DNA of 32,128 nucleotides, from NCBI GenBank assembly GCA_034926675.1, contig JAYFQW010000074.1, forward strand, positions 1 to 32,128, given 5' to 3'. Below, in pieces: positions 22,197 to 32,128 of this stretch; positions within the stretch are counted from its first letter, which is position 1; the number at the start of each line of letters is the position of its first letter. The notes beneath the pieces were generated by a model. The model searched no databases and had not been told where the DNA came from. It saw only the letters and a list, made by a program, of their open reading frames with translations. The stretch comes from Clostridia bacterium (GTDB lineage: Bacteria > Bacillota > DTU025). The translations under genes were made by a program, and so were the position numbers.

Positions 22197-25100
22197 TCAC
22201 ACGCGAATGCCCGCGTGCTTCAGGAACTCAATGACAGCACCTCGATTCAGCATGTCGTGGCAAAACTGGTTCCCGTAGTCGCGCAGGCAGCCGTAGCAGC
22301 TTCCATTCGCGGTCTCCCCACCACATGTGCAAGAGCTCAGTCTCCTGAGGGAGGCTGTCATCGATTCGCGGAGTGCGCTAGGATCCGCAAGCCTATGGAC
22401 ATACCCTGCACCACCGGGGACGGTATCGAACAGGACAAGCCTGGTCGAGTTGCCCGTAGGACCGCCCCACTGGAGACATCCGTCGATCTCGTTCCTCTCG
22501 ATACCCAGAGCCATGCAGGCTCCTTCGATCAATGCGTAAAGCAGTGAGTACCAGAACCCCTGATTCTGGTTACCGCATGGTTCGAACGCCAGCCTGGCTA
22601 TGTCGGTCATGAACTCGTAACCTAGCGACGCGTGGGTGAAGCTCCCCTTGCACTCGCGACCGTACGGGTCTAGGTGGGAGGCCGTGCCTTTCTTGACGTA
22701 GCCCACCATGGCGTACCCACACCACCTGCATATGGAGAACCCCTGCCCGAACGCTTCATTTATCACGGCGAGCCTCCCTGCCTTTGAAGTGCTCACTTTG
22801 ACCAACGTATCCGATAGCTGCAGTTCTGATGCTGTATCGTCACCCTCGATGCGAGAGAAGAAGACCCTGGTGGCATGGGTCCGCTCTGGCCTCTGCTCAC
22901 CTGGCTCTGCAGGCTCCCCCACATCCGCGATGAAGCCAAACTCCGGAACCACGAACGCCTTTGAGCAGGTGACTTCTGCTCCGCAGGTGTCACACAGCTG
23001 AGTCTTGCTGTCATCCAGGGCCAACTTGGTCACGTAGTTTCCGCACTCTCGACACTCACTGTAGAAGTAGCGCATCCACTCCCGCTGAGGCACACGCTTC
23101 AGATAGCGGCTTGTCCATACCTTGCCCCCCGCCACGACCTGACCATCTGGAGCGTACTCGGATATCGCAAGCCTGAGATCTCGTTGGAGCTCAACTGTTC
23201 GGTCTGAGTACGAGTTCAGGCTCAGATCCAAGTTCACGATGTCGACGGGGAAACCATACCTGGGCAGGACGTTTCGGCTGGCCAGGTAGTTAATGAGATA
23301 GCGCTCTCTTATTGTCTTCATGAGCCTCACAGGGTCTCTCGTGTCCGCGAACTTCGCAGCAAGCTCTGTGTATCGCTCTGTCAAGACTTCGATATCATTG
23401 TTGACTTCCTCACTAGCAAGAGCCAGAACCCCTGGAGCGTCAGAGTCGCTGGACGCGAGAAACCCATCTACCCATGCCCACGAATCGATACCCAGGGGAT
23501 CTAGGAGATTCCCCGGGACCGTACGCATGAGGCTCCTCTTCAGGCCCTCTGGCCTTGAACCCAAGTGCTCTTTGAGGAGCCTCGTTCCGGAGCCCTTGCT
23601 GTTGAGGAAGAAGTCCTGAACAGTGTGCCAGTACTCCTCGTGGGACCGCCAGAAGTCGGCCAGAGCAGTGGCATATACATGCCGCAGTACTATCTTCCTA
23701 TTGTCGAGCTCGAAGTGGGGCGGTCTGATGTGCCCTCTGATCATCCCGTCGGGTTCCCTGTAGTGGAAAGCATCGTGGGGCCTGTCCTGTGCGTATGTGA
23801 CCACCATGGCTGCGACTCCCGCTCTTCGGCCTGCTCTCCCTGCACGCTGTACGTAGTTTGCAGCAGAAGGCGGAACGTTCTTCATCAGCACAGTCTCGAG
23901 ATCTCCAAGGTCTACGCCGAGCTCAAACGTAGTGGAACAGCTGAGAATGTTGATGCGGCCTTCCTGGAAATCGGTCTGGAACTGTGCCGCCGCCTCGGGT
24001 TTGAGCTGGGCAGTGTGCTCTTCAGCCCGCATCTCCCACGGGAAATCGCGTTCCACGTAAAGCCGAACGTAGTGGTTGGACTCAAGGGACTTCGAGACAT
24101 CAGCTGGAGCTAGCATACCCGTGCACCTGTACTGGGGGCACACGCCACGCACATTGTGCAGTGTTATGCGTCCGCACGTGTCACACGCGTACCACTGCGG
24201 CGTGCACCGCGTGCCGTGAGCAAGGACTCCCCATCTCGCAGGGTCCAATTGGTATGTAGGGCCGTTACGGCGATCGCTGATACTATCGAGGTAGCCTTGC
24301 CATACACCGTTCGGCCAGCCCATTAGGAGATCTCTGTTCCACGTGCCCTCGAGCAGTTCCAAGGCCGCTTCTCCGTGATCTCTCTCCAGTTCTATCCTTT
24401 GAGCCAGCCTCACAAGATAGTCGGACCTGCTGTTTCGGGTTGACGGACGGCCCGGCCTCCACGCAATGATGTGTGCAAGCCGATCAGGACCCAATAGTCT
24501 CACAGACACCTCGAAGTTGCGTGGCTCGAAAATCGGATCCCTCGGATTCACGCCCTTAGGAAACTTCATGGCACCATTAAGCCTGAGTGTGTCGAGCATG
24601 ACTCCATAAAGATCCCATACCTCTTCTGGCGTCAGTCGCCACTGCAGCAGGTAGTACGGAGATGGGCTCCAATTGCCCGGCTTATCGAGCTTGAACCCGA
24701 GCAAGCCCATCCTCTCCAGACCGTGACGATCGCGACCCATGAACTCCTGAAGCACCCACTTCTGTGCCTCCTCTCGGATTGCAGCAGAAGTGCGACCGCT
24801 GGCAGCCTCCGTCGACAGTCTCTTCTCGACCTGCCTCCAAAGATCTACAGTCAGCACCGAGCATCCTTCGGATTCCGAGATTACCTCCCTCGCGGCATCA
24901 AGAACGATATTACGCCTCAGAATGCGCTCATAGCTGCTCTGCATGTATGGGGCGAAGTAGGCCGCGTCCTGCCGACTATCAGAAAAGACCAGAAGTTTGT
25001 GAGGATCTGCAGAATCGGCGTTATCAGTGGATTTCGCAACGGCCCACCCGCTTTCGTCGTACTCCACACCGGGCTCGCCGGAGACAATGGAAGTGCCCGG

Positions 25101-27080
25101 AGACTCGACATTTCCCTGATTACGGTTCAGTTCCCGATATGCAGCGGTAGCAATGACACTGGCCGCCGCATCCGCCCCCACCGATATCCTCCGCACTACC
25201 CCGAGCAAGTTGTCACGCGCTCCACACACTGGGCAACGGTTCACCTGCCGATTTCTGGCTTTTGCGTCAATTAGCCTCACTCTGTTGGCACCGCACCTAC
25301 ACAGCGGGACAAGCGCACCCTCGATCCCGATTGCGCCACAGATGGGGCACAACTCGTATGTCTCCACATCGATCTCGTCCTCTGTCGGATCATCCTGATT
25401 GTCCTCATCGTCTGTGCAGCCTGTGGCGAGCGCAGGATCTGGGACCGCATAGTATCTCACCTTGGCGTTGCTGTGAGGCCCGTTTGCAGCAGGTTTCTCC
25501 AGCGCTTCATCCTTCTCCCTAGTGATGATGTACGTTGTGCCGCAGTTCCGGCACAACCCTGCATCGAACGCCACAGCGCTCCCGTTACCGCACGGCACGC
25601 TCTCAACCCGATCCAGATGGATAGCAGGCTCGGGTGCGAACGACACGTAGCCGCCGTTCAGGGCCCTTATCATGAGATGGTACTTGGCAGGCAGCAGCGG
25701 ACCGCTGTCTCCAGCTGGCTTGGCCCTGACCGCTAAGCTGATGAGGGCTACCGCGGCTTTCCCGGCATCCACGGTCGGTAAAGCGCCGCCGAATAGCTCC
25801 TCCGCAAGCTCCGCGACGTCACGCGGAGTATCGGAAAGCAGTTGCTGTACCCGAATGAGATTGCCATCACCGGAGAGAACGTCATGCAGGAAACCCTCGA
25901 CCGATGAGCCCCATTTGATTAGCGCCTTCCCGATCGTTTCCCCTGGCACGCCGTTGCCGGACGCGGTTTCCGCGAGTCTCGCCACGGCGTCCGCCCCATC
26001 AAGCTGAGATGCAATTCCCTGCCAGGCAGAGTAGAGGCGCGGATCGGGCCTTCCCCAGGACGTGTGTACTCCCACCTCCTCCCGCTCAGCGAGGACTAGG
26101 TCCTGGCAGAGCGGATCACCGGGGTCATACTCGAAATCCTCACTGAAGAGCTTGGAGGCGAACCTCATTATGTCCGCGGCATCGTCAACACCTCGGCCCA
26201 ACGTAGCGCTGGTGGCAACGCACTGAAGTCGGCCCGACTCGCCATCTGCTACCCGATCCCTAAGCCTACGAAGCAGCATGGCGGTTTCGATGCCCTTGGC
26301 GCCGGAGTATGTGTGCGCCTCGTCAAGAACGATGAAGCGCCACCCACCGACCATACCGCCGTCGAAGAACACGTTGTCATCCGGGCGCAGCAGGAGATAC
26401 TCGAGCATGGCGTAGTTGGTTATGAGGACGTGCGGCGGGCTCGCCCACATTTGCTCCCTGGATACAAGCTCGTTTGGGAGAGGAGTGCACTTGAAGGTGT
26501 TTCGGTAGGCGTCCAGGGCCTTCGATTTCTCGCGCAGTGTCTCGCCTGTATATCGCCCGAAGGAGATAAACTGGAAGGGCTCAAACAGCTGCCGGAGCCT
26601 CTTGACCTGGTCGTTGGCCAGAGCATTCATGGGGTACAACAGCAGCGCCCTCACTCCTGGAGTCAGCCTTCCCGCCTCGTGCTCACGCATCAGATAGTTA
26701 CACACGGGTATCATGAAACACTCTGTCTTGCCGCTGCCGGTTCCGGTTGCGACCACAACGTTGCGCTGGCCTGATATCATCTTGCGGATGGCCTCTTCCT
26801 GGTGCTTGTAGAGAGGCCTATCCAGGTCGACGCTGCGGGGAGAGGCGTGGGTGAATAGCGAGGAGAGAATCCCCTCGCTGACCAGATCCCGTAATGTGGC
26901 TGCTTTCACGAACGGGGGCGTAGCCTGGACGATCGGACCGCGCACAAGCCTGCCGGGCTCCCTGAGCTTGTGCTCAAACTGGTCCCGAAGCGCCTTGTCG
27001 CGGAAATCGAACGTCGTGGAGAGATACCCGAAATAGGCCTCAGCGATCTCCCTGCTCATCCTGATTGGATCCATGCTCAC
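22197..27080 (-). CDS. Giant superfamily 2 helicase with zinc ribbons and C-terminal DUF1998 (DruE/DrmB/MrfA-related)
   Basis: This is a protein of about 1627 residues. An SF2 helicase core is complete: Q motif LYKHQEEAI (about 91-99), Walker A ATGTGSGKTE (112-121), DEAH (254-257), SAT (292-294), and in the second RecA domain LLVFSDSRQDAAYF (about 695-705), STTFELGVDLGDLE (about 1050) and QRAGRAGRRAG (about 1075). Between the two lobes lies a roughly 400-residue insertion with Cys pairs forming zinc ribbons (CRNCG, CPICG, CRCG, CPVCG at 500-630), with more at CDTCG and later CRECG, CDTCG and CRWCG. The C-terminus is DUF1998, with Cys1585, 1587, 1596, 1599 and 1608 in CTCGG...SCYGCLRDYGNQFCHDML. 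This family includes the defence helicase DruE, DISARM DrmB and repair helicase MrfA. The GTG start at 27080 overlaps the preceding stop as GTGA and has GGAGGGG eight bases upstream. Confidence 0.93.
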   Translation of the reverse strand: MSMDPIRMSREIAEAYFGYLSTTFDFRDKALRDQFEHKLREPGRLVRGPIVQATPPFVKAATLRDLVSEGILSSLFTHASPRSVDLDRPLYKHQEEAIRKMISGQRNVVVATGTGSGKTECFMIPVCNYLMREHEAGRLTPGVRALLLYPMNALANDQVKRLRQLFEPFQFISFGRYTGETLREKSKALDAYRNTFKCTPLPNELVSREQMWASPPHVLITNYAMLEYLLLRPDDNVFFDGGMVGGWRFIVLDEAHTYSGAKGIETAMLLRRLRDRVADGESGRLQCVATSATLGRGVDDAADIMRFASKLFSEDFEYDPGDPLCQDLVLAEREEVGVHTSWGRPDPRLYSAWQGIASQLDGADAVARLAETASGNGVPGETIGKALIKWGSSVEGFLHDVLSGDGNLIRVQQLLSDTPRDVAELAEELFGGALPTVDAGKAAVALISLAVRAKPAGDSGPLLPAKYHLMIRALNGGYVSFAPEPAIHLDRVESVPCGNGSAVAFDAGLCRNCGTTYIITREKDEALEKPAANGPHSNAKVRYYAVPDPALATGCTDDEDNQDDPTEDEIDVETYELCPICGAIGIEGALVPLCRCGANRVRLIDAKARNRQVNRCPVCGARDNLLGVVRRISVGADAAASVIATAAYRELNRNQGNVESPGTSIVSGEPGVEYDESGWAVAKSTDNADSADPHKLLVFSDSRQDAAYFAPYMQSSYERILRRNIVLDAAREVISESEGCSVLTVDLWRQVEKRLSTEAASGRTSAAIREEAQKWVLQEFMGRDRHGLERMGLLGFKLDKPGNWSPSPYYLLQWRLTPEEVWDLYGVMLDTLRLNGAMKFPKGVNPRDPIFEPRNFEVSVRLLGPDRLAHIIAWRPGRPSTRNSRSDYLVRLAQRIELERDHGEAALELLEGTWNRDLLMGWPNGVWQGYLDSISDRRNGPTYQLDPARWGVLAHGTRCTPQWYACDTCGRITLHNVRGVCPQYRCTGMLAPADVSKSLESNHYVRLYVERDFPWEMRAEEHTAQLKPEAAAQFQTDFQEGRINILSCSTTFELGVDLGDLETVLMKNVPPSAANYVQRAGRAGRRAGVAAMVVTYAQDRPHDAFHYREPDGMIRGHIRPPHFELDNRKIVLRHVYATALADFWRSHEEYWHTVQDFFLNSKGSGTRLLKEHLGSRPEGLKRSLMRTVPGNLLDPLGIDSWAWVDGFLASSDSDAPGVLALASEEVNNDIEVLTERYTELAAKFADTRDPVRLMKTIRERYLINYLASRNVLPRYGFPVDIVNLDLSLNSYSDRTVELQRDLRLAISEYAPDGQVVAGGKVWTSRYLKRVPQREWMRYFYSECRECGNYVTKLALDDSKTQLCDTCGAEVTCSKAFVVPEFGFIADVGEPAEPGEQRPERTHATRVFFSRIEGDDTASELQLSDTLVKVSTSKAGRLAVINEAFGQGFSICRWCGYAMVGYVKKGTASHLDPYGRECKGSFTHASLGYEFMTDIARLAFEPCGNQNQGFWYSLLYALIEGACMALGIERNEIDGCLQWGGPTGNSTRLVLFDTVPGGAGYVHRLADPSALRESMTASLRRLSSCTCGGETANGSCYGCLRDYGNQFCHDMLNRGAVIEFLKHAGIRV

Positions 27081-30000
27081 CAAGCGAACCCCTCCTCAGA
27101 CTCCGCGTGTTCTGCGAGACTGGTGCATAAGGTGATGTATGCTTGGACCATGGCCTCAGCCAATTCCCCTTCGGAATCCGCGAGGCTTGGCTGACAGTCG
27201 AGAGGCCTGAAAGCACTATCGGCTACGACCCCGAGGTAAGGGAGACTCGCTGAGAATCTCGCTCCAGGCTGGCGCACCAATCTCTCCAGGTCGTACTCTA
27301 CGCCCAGATGCACTCGGATGTGCTGCGGAACCGGATCGAGGCCCTTGCATTTTGGTGCATGGTTCAAGTGCCACACCTGCTGGGTTATGACCTCCCTCGG
27401 GTACTGACAGTTCTCATCCGTACATCTGCAAAGCATGTCTTGAAGCGTTAGTTGGAAATCCGATTCGAAGCCACTCAGTACCTGGAGTTCAGCTCGGCCT
27501 GTATAGAATGGAGTGCCTAGAGAAAGCCTCACGTGCCCCGTCTCAGAAGATAGTGACTCGAGAACTCGCCTGCTCTGCTCCGATGTCAGTTTGGCAGACT
27601 CGAAGCGATCACCCGAGACGCTGATGATCACGCCGCCCCCGGCTTGTCGGGAACGGCTAAGCCACTGGGCAACCGAGGACCTCGTTAGCAACTGGAGAGC
27701 TTGGCGGCATGGCCCAACGGCGGCAAAGCGGTACACGTTGGCAGTGCCGCCTGCACAAACCCCGATCACACTCGCATCGCGGGTGAGGTCATCAACGGCG
27801 AATTCGAACCGTCCGTCGGCACTGAACCCTACAGGGATCTTCTCCAGCTCGCACCGGTCTCGCATTACGATACCGAAGAGGTTCCCGCCAACGTTCGCAG
27901 GGTGCACAGACCCACTGCAATGCAACTCGATGCCCTTCCGCCTGATCTCCAGCGTGCGCACCTGTGGGAGATCATCTGACACCCATACTGGAACCGCGCC
28001 CAGCTCAGCGGCAGGATGACTGCCGCTCACGCCTGCCTGAGCCCAGAGTAGGGCATCCTCATCCACGATCCTGATCACGTACGGACCAGCCAGCGCCGGA
28101 GTACCTAGTTCGAATGCGCACTCATGGCTGCCAGGTTCCACAAGTGCCTTCAGCGCAGGCGCCCATGGCGCCCACGCGGCATGCAACGTCGCGTTCATCC
28201 TCCTACGGGGGGCGACACCGGCCCAGGCTATCCTGATCTGCTTGCGCTCTCCGCCCTCCATTATGAATCCATCAGGTGACTCGGGCACCCATTCGGTATG
28301 GACGATCGCAACATGAACTCGGGCAACCACCGATGATCTGGAGTCAAGCAGTGCAAGGTGCAACGACGCTTTCGGCCCGCCGCGCCTGATAATCTCGACG
28401 AACCGGCCCAGATCGAAAGACACGGCCCGATCCCCATCCGCAATGCACACGCTGGCAACTACCTCTCCTGCTTCCAGCTGTAGGCTACGCACGGCTGGCG
28501 CCGCGATGACCACTGAGAGTGCTCTAGTAGTCTGGTTTTGGATGTCCTCCAACCAGCAATCGACTGCAGACGACCTCCACGGACCCCGGTCGTCGCCGCC
28601 GGATCCCTCCAGCCGCCAACGTACAGTAGGCAGCTCAATGGCAATTGGAAGCGTCTCATCGCCGCTGACCATCCGGGCGAGAATCACATCAGCATCTGCA
28701 GGCGACTGGATGCATGTGGTCTCCTCGTATCGCTCGGTCACCGTAGCAGGTGGGTCAGGCTCCAACAGCCAGCCAGGAGACGACACAACCTCACATTCGA
28801 AGACCTGACCAGTTTTCGGGACTAGAATCTTCTCGTCGAAATCTGCCACGAGGTAGGGCATACGAGCCAGAGCAAGCTGCCTTGCCATGCCATATGGGTC
28901 AGACCAGATGAGTTCCGCTTTCAGAGGTCGGTCGTCCGAGATGCCCAGCCGCGTCATGAGGTCATCAAGGTCTAGGGTGGAATTGCACAGAACGGACTCC
29001 TCGACGCCTTGCTCAAGCACTTGCTCCACGGAGATGCCGTCATCCAGCGTTTTCACAACTAGCTTGAGGCCTTGCAGCATGCTCCACGATGGGCTATCGC
29101 CAGCCTCAGCCGCACGAAGCTGCAATCGAGGAAGGGCCCCCGAATAGACGGGGCGACGTCCGCAGAAGACCCCCGCCGCGCGGTCTCCGCCGCAAATCGC
29201 GACCTCGTCATCGACGATCTGTGGTCTCAGCCCAAAGCACCGCTCATCTGGACCAGACACTATCCGAAGCGTGTTGTCGCGACACTCCTGAAGGTCTATC
29301 CATGCCAGCTCATGAGTTCCCACTCCTAAAGCTGGAATCCGCATCTTGACCGCCGGCTCTGGGTACACTTCAGCTCCAGACCGGAGCAGAAGCCAGACAG
29401 TGCTGCCTTCTAGCACATCGTGCTTGATAAGCCTGCCGGTTGAGGAGAAAACCATGCAAGGGTCGGCCAAGAGCATTGACGGGATCGGACATGACACGAG
29501 AACCAAGCCCCCACATTCCACATCGAGGCGCAGTTGGCCCTCAAGTGTGGTCAGATCCATGGCCGCGGGCAAGGCCATGGCCCCTCCTGCAATGCGGCGT
29601 GCTTCGAGCTGTTTTCTCTGAATGACCTCTTCACCATCACCGCTGCAGCCGGTACGCTTCAGCACCATCTCCAAGGCCGAGCCGAAGTCGCCACGGAGTC
29701 TCTGCTCACCCACATCCACAACTAGAGCACTCCGCTTGATGTCAAGGCTGAGTTCTGCGCTGGCGCTCACCGAGTCACCAATGCCGCCACAGTGCTTAGC
29801 TGGGACGAGAGAACCGCCCGTGCCAGCGCCTGAGCCTTCCCCGGTTCCGTCTGGCATTCTCAGAAGGCGCCGATGAGAACTGTCCTGTTCAAGAGCAAGC
29901 ATCAGACGTTGTGGTGGACGCCCACGCAGGAGAATGGGGAGTCCTGCCGGAGCACCGAGGAATCGCGCAGTGATCGCCACCCACTGCTCAGCCCACTCCC

Positions 30001-31375
30001 CGCCATGCATAAGGAAGTCGATCACAGGTTTCGTCAACGAATAGTGCGCCCCGCTCTGCTGAATCGTTCCATACTCAGCGGCCAACTGGCGGTCTCTGAA
30101 GTACTCCCTCTTGATATCCTCGCGGAAGCGCGTTACCACCGATCGAGAATCCGTGATCCCATGCCGAGCGAAACGCTTCCACACATACTCGATGAACTCC
30201 GGCATGCACGAGTCTGGTATGCCCATCTGGAACAGCATCTGCGTCACATAGCGTTGGCCCCGGTCAACCCGGCAGCAAGCTAGCGAGAATGCCTTCTTGC
30301 AGCTTTCGAGAGCTGGCGCGAGAAGTCGGGCGGCAGGGATATCCACTCCTAACCGTGCTGCGACGGCTGCCCAAAGCTTCCCTTCGCTGTAGTCCTGAGC
30401 TGTGACATGCACCAGCGCATACGTCACTGCGCATCTGTAGTCTCTAGCGAGACGAAAGGCACAGTCCCGCCGGTTTTCACACCGTGCGAACTCGCCAGCA
30501 ATGAGCTGAATCAGCATATTTACCTGCTCCTTGGGCATCTGAATCTGGCCCAGGAACCGCACCTCATTTGTGGCCTGTGCTAGTCGCTTCTCATACTCCG
30601 AGAGAGTCGCTCCAGGCGGCATCGTCAACTCGATAGGCACCCCGGAAGCAGAGTTGCTTTCGAGCCAGTCTATCTCCGGCGTGACCGCTTCCTGGCCAAG
30701 CTTCCTCTGGACTTCCAGGTCGAAGCCTGCTCTGATGCGAAATCGCCTTCGCACGCGCCCGGTGGGCTCGGCTGGCTCCGGCGACCACGTTGTAGTCTCC
30801 AGCGAAGCCTCCGAGGGCACAGGGAGGTCAATGGGCAAAGCCGACTGAACAAGCTCAACCGGTTCAACTGCCTCGGCGGCCAACGAAGCGGTCGCAGCCG
30901 ACTTTGTGGCCGCGGCACGCTGGTCCAGCCCGGATTCCCATGCAAGGGCTGCCACGCGGAAGCCAGATGCAATCGTGATGGGTGCCACACTCTGAGAGTA
31001 GAGCATAGCAGGAACAGCAAGACTGAAGAGATGTGACTGCGAACCCGGAGGCGGCAGTGTGATGGGGGCTATGACGTATTCGAAGGCCCGGAGACGCATC
31101 CGGGTCCCGCAGCGGGCTGCCGTAGGCCTCTCCATCGCAATGAGGGCGAGCATCTCTCCACTGGGCGCCCCCTTTGCGGGAGCGACCGCAAAGCCAAATG
31201 CATGGCGAGGAGCGATAGGCAGAGCGCCTTGGCCGCGGCCAATTGGGATGAGATTCCAGCATCGGAACTCCCTATCGTTTCGAATCCTCTTGCACACACA
31301 CGCAAGTGCTCGAGCCCGCCTGCGCAATCGCTTGTCACGCCTACATTCGTTCAGAGCTGCTGATGCCAGATCCAT
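27077..31375 (-). CDS. Giant protein of unknown family, partner of the DUF1998 helicase
   Basis: This is 1432 residues with no domain I can name. In order: a basic Arg/Cys-rich head (1-45); a compact hydrophobic region (45-160); an Ala/Glu/Pro linker (about 160-225); an alpha-helical block (about 230-485) with Cys/Arg-rich helices and segments such as DYSEGKLWAAVAARLG and RYVTQMLFQMGIP; a Gly/Ser linker near 505-520; a long beta-rich, Ig-like stretch (about 540-1250) with repeated strand-turn patterns; and a C-terminal part with a Cys cluster, CRCTDENC (Cys1316, 1318, 1323) plus Cys1343, probably zinc-binding. No membrane helix, signal peptide, ATPase or nuclease motif is visible. GAGGTG lies nine bases before the ATG. 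It is translationally coupled to the helicase. A DruH-like partner role in a Druantia-type defence system is plausible but unproven. Confidence 0.85.
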   Translation of the reverse strand: MDLASAALNECRRDKRLRRRARALACVCKRIRNDREFRCWNLIPIGRGQGALPIAPRHAFGFAVAPAKGAPSGEMLALIAMERPTAARCGTRMRLRAFEYVIAPITLPPPGSQSHLFSLAVPAMLYSQSVAPITIASGFRVAALAWESGLDQRAAATKSAATASLAAEAVEPVELVQSALPIDLPVPSEASLETTTWSPEPAEPTGRVRRRFRIRAGFDLEVQRKLGQEAVTPEIDWLESNSASGVPIELTMPPGATLSEYEKRLAQATNEVRFLGQIQMPKEQVNMLIQLIAGEFARCENRRDCAFRLARDYRCAVTYALVHVTAQDYSEGKLWAAVAARLGVDIPAARLLAPALESCKKAFSLACCRVDRGQRYVTQMLFQMGIPDSCMPEFIEYVWKRFARHGITDSRSVVTRFREDIKREYFRDRQLAAEYGTIQQSGAHYSLTKPVIDFLMHGGEWAEQWVAITARFLGAPAGLPILLRGRPPQRLMLALEQDSSHRRLLRMPDGTGEGSGAGTGGSLVPAKHCGGIGDSVSASAELSLDIKRSALVVDVGEQRLRGDFGSALEMVLKRTGCSGDGEEVIQRKQLEARRIAGGAMALPAAMDLTTLEGQLRLDVECGGLVLVSCPIPSMLLADPCMVFSSTGRLIKHDVLEGSTVWLLLRSGAEVYPEPAVKMRIPALGVGTHELAWIDLQECRDNTLRIVSGPDERCFGLRPQIVDDEVAICGGDRAAGVFCGRRPVYSGALPRLQLRAAEAGDSPSWSMLQGLKLVVKTLDDGISVEQVLEQGVEESVLCNSTLDLDDLMTRLGISDDRPLKAELIWSDPYGMARQLALARMPYLVADFDEKILVPKTGQVFECEVVSSPGWLLEPDPPATVTERYEETTCIQSPADADVILARMVSGDETLPIAIELPTVRWRLEGSGGDDRGPWRSSAVDCWLEDIQNQTTRALSVVIAAPAVRSLQLEAGEVVASVCIADGDRAVSFDLGRFVEIIRRGGPKASLHLALLDSRSSVVARVHVAIVHTEWVPESPDGFIMEGGERKQIRIAWAGVAPRRRMNATLHAAWAPWAPALKALVEPGSHECAFELGTPALAGPYVIRIVDEDALLWAQAGVSGSHPAAELGAVPVWVSDDLPQVRTLEIRRKGIELHCSGSVHPANVGGNLFGIVMRDRCELEKIPVGFSADGRFEFAVDDLTRDASVIGVCAGGTANVYRFAAVGPCRQALQLLTRSSVAQWLSRSRQAGGGVIISVSGDRFESAKLTSEQSRRVLESLSSETGHVRLSLGTPFYTGRAELQVLSGFESDFQLTLQDMLCRCTDENCQYPREVITQQVWHLNHAPKCKGLDPVPQHIRVHLGVEYDLERLVRQPGARFSASLPYLGVVADSAFRPLDCQPSLADSEGELAEAMVQAYITLCTSLAEHAESEEGFAW

Positions 31376-31960: not shown

Positions 31961-32128
31961 CTATGCGCCTGCGGAGACTCGCAGGTTATCTGCGGCAGCT
32001 TCTTGGACGATTAGCGGGTCGATGGCTCGAGCCTCGTGTGCGTATCCGAAAAGAAGGCACTTGGACGCTGCTTGGTTGATCAGCCGTGGAGCGCCGCCGG
32101 CTAGTTCGTAGATGGCTGTGATCGCATC
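31961..32128 (-). CDS. ExeA/TniB-like AAA ATPase, C-terminal fragment (transposon accessory protein)
   Basis: The last 55 codons of a minus-strand gene, running off the right edge and ending at TAG 31963-31961. The sequence DAITAIYELAGGAPRLINQA, then CLLFGYAHEARAIDP and QEAAADNL, is the characteristic end of ExeA-family AAA ATPases: the sensor-2 GG-x-PRLIN motif followed by the short helix ending in a conserved D-x-x-x-V and A-A-x-[DE]. In genomes these ATPases are mostly encoded beside a DDE transposase and supply target selection, as MuB, TniB and IstB do. The rest of the gene and any transposase would lie beyond the window. Confidence 0.75.
   Translation of the reverse strand, partial: DAITAIYELAGGAPRLINQAASKCLLFGYAHEARAIDPLIVQEAAADNLRVSAGA

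Follow-up and report, generated by a model that had tools for sequence, protein, structure and literature searches.

The question raised by this locus is whether two long adjacent genes of a Clostridia bacterium form an anti-phage system and, if they do, of which kind. The genes lie on the reverse strand of contig JAYFQW010000074.1 (assembly GCA_034926675.1). The window, that is, the whole stretch of DNA that was analysed, is this entire contig (C74, 32,128 base pairs [bp]); the source assembly holds 3.38 megabases in 90 contigs. The first gene encodes a protein of 1432 amino acids (aa), called the giant here, and the second encodes a superfamily 2 (SF2) helicase. The pair appears likely to be a Druantia-III-like candidate anti-phage module that lacks a nuclease and consists of two coupled genes, in which the giant would be a DruH-like sensor or scaffold that licenses a DruE helicase. 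It is a mobile module, very probably an anti-phage one, that is related to Druantia III and recurs across Bacillota. Coordinates are collected in Table 1.

Both genes are real and not chance open reading frames (ORFs), because many genomes hold full-length homologues that are arranged in the same way. The helicase ORF (22197-27083, reverse strand) encodes 1628 aa if it starts with the TTG at 27083 and 1627 aa if it starts with the GTG at 27080. Its homologues begin at the equivalent of the GTG with MSxDPI... (MSIDPI... in the window). The ORFs and these starts agree with the initial annotation, which had described two coupled genes of 1432 and about 1627 codons sharing GTGA. The junction gap is 30 bp or less in 28 of the 29 loci in which both genes were read, and the genes overlap in 18. 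The result is a two-gene operon with the large partner upstream, as in Druantia type III-B/III-like systems.

The helicase is DruE-like and has what is expected of the DruE of Druantia. Pfam cut-offs were passed by DEAD, Helicase_C, and MZB (= DUF1998, PF09369), and motif VI (QRAGRAGR) is found at residue 1079. The inter-lobe insertion and many CxxC cysteines are invariant in the alignment of helicase relatives. These matches, motifs, and cysteines bear out the SF2 helicase with a large inter-lobe insertion, zinc modules, and a DUF1998 C-terminus that had been read from the sequence. With PADLOC, the window helicase was matched by DruE1 (5.7e-180), DruE3 (1.5e-166), DruE2 (1.6e-123), and DruE4 (3.9e-114), far more strongly than by the non-Druantia profiles DpdJ (2.6e-26) and DrmA (4.5e-15). 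Membership in DISARM or Dpd was rejected on these values. The nearest solved chain is 9tu7, a DEAD/DEAH helicase of 2108 aa (3.4e-79).

The trees, which included DruE of type I and of PLD-bearing type III, cyanobacterial DruE-like proteins, ARMADA, and the MrfA-like protein of the source genome, likewise place the helicase within the Druantia part, in support of the initial annotation. It groups with the helicases of L018 and L019 (support 100) in an 18-row clade in which every partner is a giant (SH-aLRT [Shimodaira-Hasegawa-like approximate likelihood ratio test] 97). This clade is nested in a 31-row clade of DruE-like proteins from Bacillota (support 100), and cyanobacterial DruE-like proteins neighbour the larger clade (support 96 in one tree and 89 in the other). 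The window helicase stands apart from PLD-type Druantia III, type I, ARMADA, and MrfA; type I DruE is near it in the tree, as are the cyanobacterial proteins, and these trees do not firmly settle the order in which the Druantia types branch. No C-terminal PLD nuclease domains were found on the window helicase, whose C-terminus lies about 43 aa past the MZB cysteine cluster. In every complete helicase of the 18-row clade, the tail after the MZB cysteines is 40-48 aa, likewise without a nuclease. PLD-type DruE proteins are 2002-2115 aa long. ARMADA (PMC12458937) also has a YprA-family helicase with zinc modules. It was rejected, as neither a BrxHII/RapA helicase nor a PglX-type methylase partner was found in the window and the helicase falls outside the ARMADA rows.

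The phylogeny also bears on whether this could be an MrfA-like housekeeping pair for DNA repair or recombination. Outside the defence branch, YprA proteins function in repair (PMC12458937), the neighbours downstream of the window pair are ordinary, and MrfA/YprA repair helicases share the SF2 core and MZB/DUF1998. They are about 750-880 aa long, lack the large insertion, and are very distant from the window helicase. The best local score with the MrfA-like protein of the source genome (L162, 873 aa) is 76 bits, versus 1924 bits with the helicase of L018. A firm place among MrfA-type repair helicases had been named in advance as evidence against a defence role; the tree puts the window helicase far from MrfA, with which it does not cluster, and membership there was rejected.

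The distribution of the pair speaks against housekeeping as well. Homologues of the giant, which is a real and conserved family, were found in 9 of 199 related genomes by a single-sequence search and in 32 of 398 genomes (about 8% of the sampled phylum) by a profile search. The named carriers are all Bacillota (Desulfofundulus australicus, Peptococcaceae, Thermoanaerobacterales, and other metagenome-assembled genomes). Presence is patchy even within one genus, with the pair in G001 and not in G005. All 17 helicases above 2000 bits in the 398 genomes come from giant-bearing genomes, and the giant lies directly upstream except at contig ends. The window, L018 (same order), and L019 (same family) have the pair in common and no flanking gene in common. 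With defence-island neighbours at several loci, a housekeeping role is very improbable. The stand-alone two-gene unit that had been suggested is thus seen as a pair conserved at changing genomic locations, and it is not confined to syntenic core positions lacking defence genes.

The defence context comes from PADLOC applied to the neighbours of part of the loci, and no rate was derived from it. At L019, the neighbours include a type III methyltransferase (MTase III) and a GajB-like UvrD helicase, and at L021 and L134 they include SIR2-HerA, MTase III, and ZacABC. In one genome, L073 (G278:C17) and L132 (G278:C13) together give a co-directional brxC-pglX-giant-helicase-brxHI-pglZ order over a contig break. 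L138 is again BREX-like (pglX-giant-helicase), and a PglZ fragment adjoins L023. A pair inside a BREX operon suggests functional coupling of the two systems. In the wider clade, the neighbours include prokaryotic Argonaute (pAgo), type I restriction, a reverse transcriptase (RT)-associated NERD helicase, and Cmr Cas10. The giant was not found in a search of plasmids and viral contigs; the helicase matches in viral contigs belong to other Druantia-type systems.

The giant was matched by no family model of PADLOC, Pfam, NCBIfam, or PHROGs. Its relatives range from 760 to 1930 aa. The part common to most of the partner family is the N-domain, with the motif FLGQI...YxEGxxW...RYVTxxLxxGxP. In many giants it is followed by a long coiled coil; the window group is without the coiled coil and has the 230-aa N-terminal extension instead. 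Most giants end in C..C...W..H..C, and the zinc finger has CxxC in most relatives. The better-modelled parts of the giant in AlphaFold2 (AF2) are tandem beta-sandwiches, and Foldseek gave only generic immunoglobulin (Ig), fibronectin, and alpha-2-macroglobulin-like (MG-domain) matches to the model. Nothing beyond tandem beta-sandwiches was read from these matches. The long giants also matched SMC, LmuB, JetC, and haemagglutinin stalks, which was dismissed as coiled-coil noise. A 16-row alignment proved too heterogeneous to be used in scans of the collection. By profile comparison, the partner family is continuous over much of the 31-row clade (core versus outer group 1.1e-29, L123 3.8e-12, L126 5e-8), and some outer-clade partners (e.g., L125 and L130) have no direct profile link to the giant core.

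Table 1. Positions of the pair and its parts in the window.
Feature	Position	Strand	Evidence
Gene 1, giant partner protein, DruH-like candidate, 1432 aa	27077..31375	-	ORF and homologues
N-terminal extension, giant residues 1-230	30686..31375	-	Alignment; common to L018 and L019 only
Conserved alpha-rich N-domain, giant residues 256-435	30071..30610	-	Alignment; low-confidence helical AF2 model
Beta-sandwich (Ig-like) region, giant residues ~604-1106	28058..29566	-	hhalign, AF2, Foldseek
C-terminal zinc finger C-x5-C...W..H-x3-C, giant residues 1318-1343	27347..27424	-	Alignment, sequence motif
GTGA start/stop overlap, giant stop/helicase start, translational coupling	27077..27080	-	Sequence
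Gene 2, DruE/YprA-type SF2 helicase, 1627 aa from GTG, without C-terminal nuclease	22197..27080	-	ORF, PADLOC, Pfam, alignment, trees
Walker A TGTGSGKTE, helicase residues 113-121	26721..26747	-	Sequence motif
DEAH box (motif II), helicase residues 254-257	26313..26324	-	Sequence motif
Inter-lobe insertion, ~700 aa (~residues 313-1015), several zinc-binding CxxC pairs	24039..26147	-	Alignment; between DEAD and Helicase_C
Helicase_C (RecA2)	23823..24035	-	Pfam PF00271, 5e-12
MZB/DUF1998 zinc-binding domain	22284..22541	-	Pfam PF09369

The relationship of the giant to DruH decides which kind of system this is. In hhalign, an alignment of 23 giants against 7 DruH sequences gave Prob 89, P 2.2e-6, and a score of 69.6, with the beta-rich middle of the giants paired with DruH residues ~360-831. 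Shuffled, block-shuffled, and reversed controls scored 30 or less, and the same co-linear segment (DruH ~350-831) recurred in almost every alignment setting tried. DruH itself has Ig-like domains at 257-748 (PMC13192584). The link is remote and weak; from these profile alignments, the middle region of the giant is likely descended from DruH. The giant fails every DruH profile, and therefore the pair is Druantia-III-like and not canonical type III. The initial annotation had left the choice between a divergent Druantia-III-like system and an undescribed one, to be settled with profile searches. These matched the helicase strongly to DruE and no giant to DruH; the DruE profiles, the tree, and the mobile pair favour the Druantia-III-like option, and canonical type III falls away.

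A number of results pull the other way. The DruH models (PADLOC; STY4851/ECs_5259, YjiT-like, DruH3) matched none of the 8 giants tried. Other alignments lower the giant-DruH Prob to 0.2-60, some of them losing significance, and the link was not seen with the window trio alone. The N-domain, the coiled coil of the relatives, and the zinc finger have no known counterpart in DruH. The AF2 model is poor, with a mean predicted local distance difference test (pLDDT) value of 54 and best blocks of 75-85 within residues ~604-1106. No defence island surrounds the window, where the downstream genes are the ordinary ones already mentioned. L025 and L067 lie among core genes, as the window pair does, and defence context is frequent and not universal.

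The results on DruH would fit a separate two-gene defence class, in which a giant unrelated to DruH, with its own recognition or effector chemistry, acquired a DruE-like helicase, the DruH likeness being a convergent beta-sandwich signal. The giants match no DruH model and differ from DruH in their other domains, even though PADLOC still recognises a divergent true DruH. The profile link weakened once an eighth DruH sequence was added. In addition, the partner family spans much of the 31-row clade while canonical DruH is all but missing from that phylum (the model tried gave 1 marginal match over 398 genomes). The recurrent co-linear segment, the null controls, and an operon order and size class like those of DruH-DruE count against it, and such a separate origin is possible but rather unlikely. 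On the same tentative footing, the giant may be an independent phage-sensing or effector protein of a distinct YprA-helicase class, widespread in Bacillota, sometimes within BREX operons, and missed by the defence models tried.

The Druantia-III-like reading is also consistent with how the two proteins evolve. In every one of 136 pairs, conservation is lower in the giant than in the helicase (mean identity 0.21 versus 0.46), and their distances are correlated (Mantel r 0.86; 0 of 2000 permutations). DruH is more divergent than DruE in the same way in Druantia III (PMC13192584). By analogy, a faster partner beside a conserved helicase is the pattern expected of a phage-facing sensor with a conserved engine. 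In Druantia III (DruH-DruE; PMC13192584), there are likewise two genes, with a large unknown protein first and DruE second, a core with MZB/DUF1998, and a setting in defence islands. In contrast, the window helicase is without PLD, has 1627 aa instead of about 2000-2115 aa, and forms a separate branch, and its partner is missed by DruH models, has other terminal domains, and often has a coiled coil in its relatives. Bell et al. described a Druantia type III-like branch (III-B) with helicases mostly without a nuclease (PMC12458937), and a pair from M. smegmatis consists of a DruH of 1132 aa and a DruE of 1667 aa (PMC13316683). The window pair resembles both in its DruE-like helicase without a nuclease and the M. 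smegmatis pair in its two-gene layout as well. The M. smegmatis partner, at 1132 aa, differs from the 1432 aa of the window and the maximum of about 1930 aa reached in relatives. The window helicase, nuclease-less and separate from III-A, was set beside III-B by published description only. Druantia I (DruABCD), II (DruMFG), and IV (DruF+DruL) share a DruE homologue, whereas none of their other genes are found at the window pair, which is a two-gene operon only.

A possible mechanism can be drawn from these systems. In published work, DruE was shown to load on 3'-tailed DNA, with DruH as the probable sensor (PMC13192584). In another system, DruH works together with a DruE whose only annotated domains are helicase and DUF1998; the two block circularisation and replication of phage DNA, and the activator is a tail protein (PMC13316683). 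By analogy with these published Druantia III systems (PMC13192584; PMC13316683), sensing, 3'-tail loading, and a replication block can be proposed for the window pair. The giant would be a remote, enlarged DruH-like protein with an alpha-helical N-domain, beta-sandwich (Ig-like) domains, and a C-terminal zinc finger. As a fast-evolving sensor or scaffold, it could recognise a phage component, gate the helicase, or both, as other Druantia III suggest. The helicase, a YprA-family DruE with an OB-CON-DUF1998 canopy and zinc modules, would load on 3' single-stranded tails, target phage replication or circularisation intermediates, and translocate 3'-5'. Phage DNA replication would then be blocked with no cutting by a fused nuclease.

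About 1 in 12 of the sampled genomes carries such a helicase with a large partner missed by all PADLOC models, in a phylum where canonical DruH is near absent. If the reading is correct, Druantia-III-like defence is wider than annotated, and the nuclease-less version would allow sensing and helicase action to be separated from DNA cutting. The partner, being variable in size, fast-evolving, and correlated with the helicase, makes DruH-type recognition testable through swaps of natural variants.

The pair could also be what is left of a Druantia system that has degenerated or become inactive, and the upstream end of the contig bears on this. The initial annotation had placed a transposon ATPase next to the pair. 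What is present is a 55-codon 3' fragment of the putative ATPase at the contig end (31961-32128), which matched no Pfam family. A repeat that includes 31961-32128 is found again at, or close to, three further contig ends (G000 C23:209-511, C25:8214-8467, and C51:1-47). The repeated sequence, at or near four contig ends and 0.6 kilobases upstream of the pair, is probably a multi-copy mobile element. Such an element close upstream, together with split or fused copies of the pair genes at L024, L075, and L076, would suit a relic. In the window itself, neither ORF is shortened or interrupted by a stop; Walker A, DEAH, motif VI, and the MZB cysteines are intact, and the GTGA junction is kept, which makes a relic extremely improbable. 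The base composition of the pair (58-60% G+C versus 58%) gives no mark of foreign origin.

Several other observations were made at related loci. At L019 (2937-3143), part of another helicase C-terminus, with 51% identity to window residues 1558-1626, remains just downstream of the intact pair and suggests recombination or duplication. At L076 (8273-11353), a single 1026-aa ORF is matched by the profile of the giant as well as by that of the helicase and looks like a deletion fusion. At L080 (9007-12468), there is a short partner of 1153 aa with a C-terminal stretch like PglW of BREX (1e-8), and the neighbouring helicase is in two pieces. In the wider clade, a class II prokaryotic Argonaute lies directly 3' of the pair at L122 (12716-14992), and a third downstream gene matches PADLOC RTasNERD-Hel at L125 (12333-14111) and L126 (8739-10508). 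A 1631-aa ORF at L133 (4959-9854, in G168) matches DruH marginally (7.9e-4), is not linked to the giants, and is possibly another large defence protein.

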